Source of the DNA: an uncultured Treponema sp. | GTDB lineage: Bacteria > Spirochaetota > Spirochaetia > Treponematales > Treponemataceae | DNA: 64,000 bases | Reading direction: 5' to 3' | Assembly: GCF_945873775.1 (NCBI RefSeq) | Contig: NZ_CAMCEC010000003.1 | Span: forward strand, 62,001-126,000 | Part shown: positions 6,446-9,115 of the stretch, piece after piece | Layout: each line of letters opens with the position of its first letter | Position numbering within the stretch: position 1 is the stretch's first letter | The notes under the pieces: model-generated | What the model was told of the DNA's origin: nothing | Database searches by the model: none | The model's input: the letters and a program-made list of their open reading frames with translations, nothing else | Made by a program: the position numbers and the translations under genes

Positions 6446-6850
6446 ATGGGACAGTATAGAATGGACAGGCTGGGCAACCAGCTTAGGGAAGAAATTGCAA
6501 CTCTCATAATGCGCCACGAAGTAAAAGATCCGCGTGTGAATGAATTTCTTACAATAAACCGTGTGGAAGTTGTAAAGGATTTATCATGCGCGAAAGTCTA
6601 TGTTTCATCTTTTTTGGATGACGCTTCTGTTGAACGCGGCGTAAAAGGCTTGCAAAGCGCGGCTGGATTTATTCAGTCTACAATCGCAAAAAAAGTTTCA
6701 ATCTATAGATTTCCAAAACTTACTTTTGTAGCAGATTTCAGCATGAAAGAAGGCTATAAAATGGTTCAAAAACTTAATGCGCTGGAAAATGAATCTAGGC
6801 AAGTTGAAATCAGCCAGAATGAGCAAAATGCCAGAGAAGACCAAGAATAA
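6446..6850 (+). CDS. rbfA: Ribosome-binding factor A
   Basis: A 134-residue RbfA, which binds the 30S subunit and helps 16S rRNA maturation. The single KH-like domain shows MDRLGNQLREEIATLI at the N-terminus, the conserved VKDPRVNEFLTINRVEV, a SCAKVYVSSF strand, and a helix around GLQSAAGFIQSTI before the C-terminal PKLTFVADFSM. The length is normal for the family. It lies in the usual infB-rbfA-truB order; its 3' end overlaps the start of the next gene by 23 bases, suggesting translational coupling. Confidence 0.92.
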   Translation: MGQYRMDRLGNQLREEIATLIMRHEVKDPRVNEFLTINRVEVVKDLSCAKVYVSSFLDDASVERGVKGLQSAAGFIQSTIAKKVSIYRFPKLTFVADFSMKEGYKMVQKLNALENESRQVEISQNEQNAREDQE

Positions 6851-8681
6851 AGTTTCCGGGGTTATGCTTTATGCAAAGACTCCGGGAATTACAAGTTTTT
6901 CTTCTCTTTGGAGCATAAAGCATGCCTTGAAAACTGAAAAGGTCGGGCATACTGGAACTTTGGATTCTTTTGCTGAAGGCTTGCTTGTTGTTTTGTCTGG
7001 CAATCTTACGCACCTTGTTCCTCATATAACTTCATTTACAAAAACTTATCGGGCTGTTGTTTGCTTCGGAAAAGAAACGGACACTCTTGACCCGACTGGC
7101 GATGTTGTAAAAACTGGTGTGGCGGCTTCTAAAGAGCAAATTGAAACTGTGCTGAAAAAATTTACTGGAGCAGTTCTTCAAGTTCCGCCTGTTTATTCTG
7201 CGCTTCATGTTGACGGAAAACGCGCAAGCGATCTTGTCCGCGGCGGAAATGAAATTCGGCTTGAAAGCAGGCAAGTTTTTATTTACAAAAATGAACTTCT
7301 TGATTTTAAAGAGCCTTCAGAAAATGACGCTTGCTCTTACGCACTGCTTGAAATTGTCTGCTCAAAAGGAACTTACATCCGCGCGCTTGCCAGAGACATT
7401 GCCTCTAGCCTTGGAACTTGCGCCCATTTATGCGCTTTGAGGCGGACTAAAGTCGGACCGTTTGAATTAAAAGATGCGGCGTGTTTTTGCGAGCTAAAAG
7501 AATTTTCAATAGAAAACGGAATTCAAAATGCGATTTATTTTCAAAAGGAAAAAGAGAAAATCCATCTTCCGTTTGAACAAAAAATAAAAAAACGCCGTGA
7601 AGATTCAGCTGAAAAAATTCAAGACATAAGAAATCACTTTTTGCTTTTTTCTCAAAAACTGGCGTCTCTTTGCGGTTTTAGCTGCGATATTTTAAAGCCT
7701 GAATTTGAAAAGTCATATTTGAATGGCCGTCCGCTTTCACAGAAAATGTTTGACATTGCAAGCTGCGGAAATGTTGAAAATGAAATTGCGGTTTTTTATT
7801 CGTCTGGAACTTTCGCCGGAATAATTTGCAAAAACAAGGATTCAAGACTTTCTTATGGTTTTGTTGTTCCGCCTGAAAAAAAGGAATTCAAAATTTTTTC
7901 TTGGAATGAATTTTGCAGTTTGAATTTTCCGATTGAATGGAAATCAAAAGGCTGCGCTCTCACGGTCGGAAGTTTTGAAGCTGTTCACGCAGGCCATGTT
8001 GCGCTTATAAAAACTGCTGTTGCTCAAAAAAATTTTGTTTCGGGAATTATAACTTTTTCCTCGCAGATAAAAAATGACGGAACTGGTTCAATTTTTACTC
8101 TTGAGCAGCGGCTGGAATTTTTCAAGGAGCTTGGGCTTGACTTTGCGGTTGTGATTGACTTCACGCAGGATTTTTCAAAAATTGAAGGAGATGATTTTAT
8201 TGAAACTTTGATTTCAGTTTGCGGAATGAAATTTCTTGTTGAAGGAAGCGATTTTAAATGCGGCTACAAAGGTTTGCTTAATATGGAAGAACTTGAAAAA
8301 ATTTCGCAGGAAAAAAACTTCCAGCTTTGCAAACAGGATTACGTTTTTTTTGAAGATGAAAAAATCAGTTCAAGCCGCATAAAAAAAGAAATTCTTGCAG
8401 GAAATTTTATATGCGTTCAGAAAATGCTTTTGCGCCCATTTGCTTTGGATGTCCGCGGAATTTCATTGAAAGAAAAATCAGCTGGAAATGAAAATTCGAT
8501 TTTTGAATTCCGCAATGAAAAAAATCAAGTTTTGCCAAAGAACGGAATTTACAAAGTTGCCGCGCTTAATTCTAACGGAAATGTTTTTCACACAACTCTT
8601 GAGATTGAAAATGAAAATCTTAGGATTGCGCTTCCAACGGCAGGAGTTGCAGAAAAAACAGTCGAGATAAAATTTTGCTGA
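6828..8681 (+). CDS. truB: Fusion protein: tRNA pseudouridine-55 synthase TruB + RibF-like FAD synthetase
   Basis: One open frame of 617 residues encodes two normally separate enzymes. Residues 1-240 are TruB: GHTGTLDSFAEGLL with the catalytic Asp46, KTYRAVVCFG, PVYSALHVDGKRA and KGTYIRALARDI. After a charged linker, residues 376-545 match the nucleotidyltransferase domain of RibF: GSFEAVHAGH (381-390, family GxFDGVHxGH), EFFKELGLDF, LVEGSDFKCGYK and ISSSRIKKEI. The tail (545-617) has LPKNGIYKVAAL like the flavokinase barrel, but the substrate motif GFPTAN is missing, so riboflavin kinase activity looks lost. The start is the ATG at 6828 (MPEKTK), inside rbfA; an upstream in-frame ATG at 6777 would add 17 residues. 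The sequence is continuous, so a misread stop would be needed to make two proteins. Confidence 0.88.
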   Translation: MPEKTKNKVSGVMLYAKTPGITSFSSLWSIKHALKTEKVGHTGTLDSFAEGLLVVLSGNLTHLVPHITSFTKTYRAVVCFGKETDTLDPTGDVVKTGVAASKEQIETVLKKFTGAVLQVPPVYSALHVDGKRASDLVRGGNEIRLESRQVFIYKNELLDFKEPSENDACSYALLEIVCSKGTYIRALARDIASSLGTCAHLCALRRTKVGPFELKDAACFCELKEFSIENGIQNAIYFQKEKEKIHLPFEQKIKKRREDSAEKIQDIRNHFLLFSQKLASLCGFSCDILKPEFEKSYLNGRPLSQKMFDIASCGNVENEIAVFYSSGTFAGIICKNKDSRLSYGFVVPPEKKEFKIFSWNEFCSLNFPIEWKSKGCALTVGSFEAVHAGHVALIKTAVAQKNFVSGIITFSSQIKNDGTGSIFTLEQRLEFFKELGLDFAVVIDFTQDFSKIEGDDFIETLISVCGMKFLVEGSDFKCGYKGLLNMEELEKISQEKNFQLCKQDYVFFEDEKISSSRIKKEILAGNFICVQKMLLRPFALDVRGISLKEKSAGNENSIFEFRNEKNQVLPKNGIYKVAALNSNGNVFHTTLEIENENLRIALPTAGVAEKTVEIKFC

Positions 8682-8845: not shown

Positions 8846-9115
8846 ATGGCACTTACAAAAGAAACAACAGCGTCAATCGTTTCAAAATTTGGAGCAAACG
8901 CAAGCGACACTGGAAATTCAAATGTTCAAATTGCTTTGATGACAGAGCGCATTAAAGAGCTTACTGCTCACTGCAAAACTTTCCCGAAAGACACCTGCGC
9001 ACAGCGTGGTCTTTTAAAAGTTGTTGGTGCTCGCCGCAAGCTTTTGAAATATCTTAAACGCACAAATCTTGAAGGCTACCGCTCTCTTATAAAAGAGCTT
9101 GGAATCCGCAAGTAA
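8846..9115 (+). CDS. rpsO: 30S ribosomal protein S15
   Basis: An 89-residue S15, a primary binding protein of the 16S rRNA platform. Seen: the helical N-terminus MALTKETTASIVSKFG, the family core NSNVQIALMTERIKELTAHCKTFPKDTCAQRGLLK (here quoted only to place it; the usual HKKDHHSRRGL loop is FPKDTCAQRGL), and VGARRKLLKYLKR. The length is exactly typical. SD AGGAG sits 8 bases upstream. It has its own promoter and is followed by an intrinsic terminator and then pnp, the conserved rpsO-pnp pairing. Confidence 0.96.
   Translation: MALTKETTASIVSKFGANASDTGNSNVQIALMTERIKELTAHCKTFPKDTCAQRGLLKVVGARRKLLKYLKRTNLEGYRSLIKELGIRK

Follow-up and report, generated by a model that had tools for sequence, protein, structure and literature searches.

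Organization of the fused gene

The question raised by the locus analysed here is what is made by a single reading frame in which tRNA pseudouridine synthase TruB continues into a RibF-like FAD synthetase without the flavokinase motif, and how FMN is then supplied to the cell. FMN is essential, and to our knowledge the riboflavin kinase of bacteria is assumed to be one family. The window, that is, the whole stretch of 64,000 nucleotides analysed, comes from an uncultured Treponema sp. As set out below, one chain probably combines a functional TruB with a monofunctional FAD synthetase, riboflavin being phosphorylated by a separate, so far unrecognised enzyme.

Translation of the open reading frames of the window gave an uninterrupted frame of 617 codons, in which both domains were found by Pfam, confirming the first-pass annotation that one frame joins TruB to FAD synthetase. 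The order of parts is TruB, a middle region, FAD_syn, and a short all-beta tail at the position of the RibF kinase. Starting from the alternative in-frame ATG of position 6777, the protein would have 634 aa instead. The gene, its neighbours and the N-terminal parts are as follows.

6446..6850, +, rbfA-like ORF, overlapping the start of the fusion (named by sequence look and gene order)
6828..8681, +, fused TruB/FAD-synthetase-type-II CDS, 617 aa (open frame, Pfam and NCBIfam)
6855..7502, +, TruB catalytic domain, aa 10-225 (TIGR00431 10-220, TruB_N 31-184, TruB_C_2 185-225)
6954..6965, +, GTLD motif of TruB (translation; invariant in alignment A1)
7503..7937, +, middle region, aa 226-370 (without Pfam match; NGRPL conserved in alignment A1)
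8846..9115, +, rpsO-like ORF downstream of the fusion (named by sequence look and gene order)

The TruB half passed the curated cut-off of TIGR00431 (226.5 vs 151.45 bits, NCBIfam), and TruB_N scored 152.8 bits (Pfam). The Asp of GTLD is presumably the catalytic residue, as in E. coli TruB. The middle region probably consists of a linker and the C-terminal (PUA-like) part of TruB itself. Before the internal in-frame ATG, GTG or TTG codons of residues 216-375, no Shine-Dalgarno-like string was found at any of the four. Comparison of the window with its close relative L041 indicated recent purifying substitution in all four parts (dN/dS 0.06, 0.23, 0.14 and 0.11, respectively). A PHROGs search gave no match.

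The fused gene lies between the rbfA-like and rpsO-like ORFs, and the fusion therefore joins two genes of the usual cluster; it would have arisen by the joining of two adjacent genes of nusA-infB-rbfA-truB-ribF-rpsO-pnp. Functionally there is nothing unusual in the fusion; its parts are known and their arrangement is new, and there is probably no functional link between the two activities.

Adenylyltransferase domain

The features of the RibF-like half are as follows.

7938..8432, +, FMN adenylyltransferase (FAD_syn) domain, aa 371-535 (PF06574 372-517; FAD-synthetase fold match)
7968..7997, +, GSFEAVHAGH, variant of the FDG-HxGH nucleotide-binding motif
8241..8264, +, EGSDFKCG, order-typical variant of G-x-[DN]-F-x-[FY]-G
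8364..8384, +, ISSSRIK motif
8433..8678, +, short all-beta C-terminal domain, aa 536-617, a riboflavin-kinase-barrel remnant without PTAN

FAD_syn (372-517) scored 96.7 bits (Pfam), and the NCBIfam cut-offs of both TIGR00083 ribF (77 vs 184.35 bits) and the RibF_rel FAD synthase NF045965 (111.7 vs 200 bits) were missed. GSFEAVHAGH and ISSSRIK, which the first-pass annotation had listed as kept, are both in the translation, as is the change from Asp-Gly to Glu-Ala that it had pointed out. The FMNAT motifs were scored against the consensus motifs in the accessible text of PMC2573891. Among the alignment rows listed, FDG-HxGH is intact in most order members, with FEA at the FDG position in the window and L041 and FDA in L043 and L044; throughout the order F-x-P-[HQ]-P has given way to other residues, Cys stands in place of [FY] in [DN]F-x-[FY]-G in most rows, and SSSxxR is retained in most rows. 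Of 20 further fused proteins, FEA was found in L217 (equal to L041), L227, L231 and L234, and the SSS motif matched the pattern used in 19, L223 being the exception. Glu-Ala is a subclade variant and not decay of a single copy, because it is shared by three fused relatives other than the near-identical L041/L217.

These replacements ([FY] to Cys in the fourth motif, FDG to FEA and the loss of F-x-P-[HQ]-P) raise the possibility that the RibF half has also lost FAD-synthetase activity and persists as a regulatory or structural appendage of TruB; in the same direction, RibF is wholly absent from some genomes (g17 and g23) and is therefore not indispensable in the order. We consider this improbable, as HxGH, GxDFxCG and SSSxI[RK] are fixed in nearly all relatives examined, the domain is under purifying selection, and it is the sole FAD_syn above the cut-off in the source genome, the two matches below the cut-off (L002 and L003) being cytidylyltransferase-like proteins of 131 and 130 aa. 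Among the other CTP_transf_like matches of the source genome, L002 and L003 were the ones read. Thus, of the suggestion that the domain now does something else, the motif changes stood and the change of function gained little from the relatives. We conclude that the domain is predicted to be a living, slightly unusual FMN adenylyltransferase converting FMN to FAD; the activity is not certain because FDG is FEA and F-x-P-[HQ]-P is lost order-wide.

As candidate replacement adenylyltransferases in the RibF-less genomes, g23 carries a NadR-like protein of 156 aa, and g17 a protein in which a CTP_transf-like domain is joined to the membrane domain Hpre_diP_synt_I (L191 1444-2469, G011). The latter fusion is a possible replacement FAD synthetase; the best NCBIfam match of its CTP_transf protein is the generic cyt_tran_rel, and its similarity to archaeal RibL is one that we take as a lead. 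The complete genome G012 is without any RibF, and no ribF is present between truB and rpsO (L148 7417-7700); its rib operon (L110) is preserved, as are RfuABCD-like genes (L125), and both carry an FMN riboswitch.

Remnant of the kinase domain

The C-terminal tail consists of 82 residues with an LPxxGxY stretch. No Flavokinase domain (PF01687) was detected by Pfam in the 617-aa frame, and neither GFPTAN nor PTAN occurs in the translation, in agreement with the loss of GFPTAN noted at first. A profile of 59 tails matched one of 15 riboflavin-kinase domains with an hhalign probability of 83.5 over the first 50 columns only. The AlphaFold models, built from 5 sequences, are of low confidence (mean pLDDT 43.9 for the full-length protein and 65.5 for 261 residues); the full-length model was too weak for use, and the tail blocks of the 261-residue model reached pLDDT 73-90. 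This predicted structure matches the C. ammoniagenes and T. maritima FAD synthetases (best Foldseek E 1.7e-12; VIA Z 11.4, rmsd 4.8, 230 aligned), the model aligning to residues 4-288 of the 338 of CaFADS. The other rows of the structure list had Z of about 6 or less, mostly over the barrel alone, and no reading was made of them. The accessible text of PMC2573891 places residues shaping the flavin pocket (C-terminal helix) beyond CaFADS residue 288, and the model, stopping there, is therefore without the part that holds this helix. The earlier description of the tail as a shrunken kinase barrel agrees with the absence of PF01687, the length of 82 residues and the 50-column profile match, and we infer that it is such a barrel without kinase activity.

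A tail that still phosphorylates riboflavin through an unorthodox active site, leaving the protein bifunctional, is unlikely. Many relatives keep the domain, in which an LPPxGxY stretch recurs, and it is under purifying selection (dN/dS 0.11), but PTAN is missing, the model is without the C-terminal part of the kinase, and plant FADS without PTAN had no kinase activity according to the accessible text of PMC2972280. Furthermore, three riboflavin makers with lumazine synthase (G219, G224 and G131) are without the C-terminal domain altogether, their RibFs ending 21-29 residues past the FAD_syn match.

Distribution of the fusion

The same fusion, which had been proposed as worth seeking in relatives, was found there. 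When 118 genomes of the genus were searched, 109 yielded FAD_syn matches, 114 in total; 49 were in frames of at least 590 aa, 48 in frames of 230-399 aa, 15 in frames below 230 aa and two in between. All 20 long frames fetched contain the TruB GTLD and extend through to the FAD_syn tail; among these 20, L217 appears to represent the same contig as the named locus L041. L041 has the same full-length frame and is 96% identical to the window, the four named relatives being 96, 58, 48 and 48% identical. Since long TruB-FAD_syn frames recur across the genus, the fused frame does not stem from a sequencing error.

A tree of 74 FAD_syn domains, with SH-aLRT as its only support measure, places 16 of the 17 fused rows in one clade (SH-aLRT 93). 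The remaining one, L214 of another genus, is placed elsewhere, and at least two changes are therefore needed. The statement that the two are separate neighbouring genes in other spirochaetes held true for L208 (G013, a single-contig genome of 1.14 Mb) and L210, in which truB and ribF are adjacent yet separate. Adenylyltransferase-only RibFs at L205, L206 and L207 lie outside the truB cluster, the gene of L207 following an NAD-synthetase-like ORF. No report of a TruB-RibF fusion was recognised in a literature search made mostly without subscription papers.

Riboflavin synthesis without a recognizable kinase

The assembly of the source genome (2.59 Mb, 99.88% complete) carries a cluster of ribD, ribE, ribBA and ribH on contig C27 (Pfam) and gave no match to PF01687. 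With PF01687 absent and one FAD_syn above the cut-off, a second RibF, one of three options offered in the first-pass annotation, is excluded for this assembly, and another way of making FMN became the best supported of the three.

The same pattern extends over the order. Among the 241 genomes of the order sample, PF06574 was found in 227, PF01687 in seven and lumazine synthase (PF00885) in 53, including the source genome. None of the 53 carries a flavokinase, the single-contig genomes G012, G128 and G179 included. Zero overlap of 53 and seven genomes in 241 is not statistically unusual (probability 0.17); the telling point is not the zero overlap itself but that 53 of 53 riboflavin makers are without a recognizable kinase. 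The archaeal riboflavin kinase PF01982 was found in none of 116 genomes, a sample that may omit some RibF-less ones; of the known genomes serving as controls, 10 of 14 were matched by PF01687 and 4 of 14 by PF01982. PF01687 was found in 167 of the 247 genomes of the phylum sample, order members included, and the kinase model therefore works on spirochaetes. In the class sample it was found in 50 of 394 genomes, mostly of one family, f13.

The neighbourhoods were also inspected. No kinase was noticed by eye beside ribF in the adenylyltransferase-only genomes G219, G224 and G131. Clustering of the ORFs at 35 loci with rib genes or an FMN riboswitch showed no kinase to recur widely: only ribD/E/BA/H were widely shared, followed by RfuABCD-like genes at 3-5 loci. 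A thiD-like ORF was present at three of the 35. No report of an alternative bacterial riboflavin kinase was recognised in the literature search, mostly without subscription papers.

The loss of the kinase itself is already known for T. pallidum (2010). The new point is that it extends to nearly all of the order and occurs side by side with riboflavin synthesis, and an unrecognised riboflavin kinase or another route to FMN is therefore required. One such route would use no riboflavin kinase, FMN being imported ready-made or recycled from FAD. Operons that resemble RfuABCD and are controlled by FMN riboswitches exist in the order, and Ftp of T. pallidum is reported to hydrolyse periplasmic FAD to FMN and AMP (PMC4767422, accessible text). 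Against this route, T. pallidum RfuA binds riboflavin (PMC4418817, accessible text), and 53 of the 241 genomes, the source genome among them, keep lumazine synthase; to synthesize riboflavin and leave it unconverted would be pointless. We regard the route by import or recycling as improbable.

The reading that we prefer is a chain acting both as tRNA pseudouridine-55 synthase and as FMN adenylyltransferase, in a cell that would make its own riboflavin and depend on a separate, so far unrecognised riboflavin kinase for FMN; the absence of known kinases points to this enzyme. In the wider version of this proposal, the chances are about even that most of the class, riboflavin makers included, relies on a riboflavin kinase that is yet to be discovered and has no relation to either PF01687 or PF01982. 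A bolder and less likely idea, that FMN is made directly, the phosphate not being lost in the lumazine synthase and riboflavin synthase steps, is very improbable. A large spirochaete order without the known kinase, some members of which make riboflavin, turns a detail of 'RibF' annotation into a concrete pathway gap, and its genomes with rib genes and without the kinase offer a direct way to seek the missing enzyme.

Flavokinase-bearing exceptions

Among the order members with PF01687, G059 (L128 163-9177) carries, as one of the rare second RibFs, a type I protein whose kinase domain is intact. Its gene follows those for an aldehyde dehydrogenase, a glycine-reductase B subunit, a DeoC/LacD aldolase, a Zn-alcohol dehydrogenase and an amino-acid-type permease. 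Aldolase, dehydrogenase, permease and RibF also occur as a similar set in G558 (L202 70-4082); only RibF and a truncated aldolase are left, side by side, in G043; and the RibF neighbours of G028 and G142 differ from the G059 set. The type I copies of L126-L129 carry a changed SSSxxR motif. The PF01687 match of G057 lies near a contig end and may be contamination. In G217, a 105-codon frame with GMPTAG and the C-terminal flavokinase half (L131 3232-3549) adjoins a flavin-reductase-like ORF on a 4.4-kb contig, and may be a fragment or a contaminant contig.

The G059 set resembles the reported fin riboflavin-degradation cluster of Clostridium scindens; in the accessible text of the preprint (PMC12934955), the finB, C, D, G and HI neighbourhood is riboflavin-induced and the word 'Treponema' is absent. 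Judging from gene order, the flavokinase, where present, may act in breakdown or salvage and not in supplying the cofactor. In G678, the 567-aa protein encoded at L197 3843-5546 (-) joins an amino-acid-type permease to a flavokinase domain, suggesting that riboflavin may be carried by this permease. Stand-alone riboflavin kinase genes were observed in family f13 at L199 3406-4216, L200 and L204; that of L199 overlaps a PNPOx-like gene, and a similar-looking ORF lies near those of L200 and L204.

Comparison with known systems

Kinase-less RibF is described in the accessible text of Yruela et al. (2010, PMC2972280) as FADS-type II, with T. pallidum having type II only and T. denticola both type I and type II. 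The window protein shares with it the FMNAT module with HxGH and SSSxxR (here SSSRIK, fitting SSS-x-x-[RK], within a FAD_syn domain of predicted activity) and the short C-terminal module without PTAN (82 residues, no PF01687 match). It differs in being fused to TruB, in the Cys of the fourth FMNAT motif and in FEA for FDG in its subclade, and the type occurs here in riboflavin-making genomes. With TruB tRNA pseudouridine-55 synthase (TIGR00431) it has the whole catalytic domain and the GTLD motif in common, but bears a second enzyme at the C-terminus. The bifunctional RibF (TIGR00083; CaFADS and TmFADS) has the same FMNAT fold and the same RibF-like order of two modules, whereas the window protein is without the Flavokinase domain and falls below the TIGR00083 cut-off. 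Plants have a separate known kinase (FHy/RFK). Plant AtRibF1/2, as described in the accessible text of PMC2972280, combine the same FMNAT module with a short C-terminal module without kinase activity, but are not fused to TruB.
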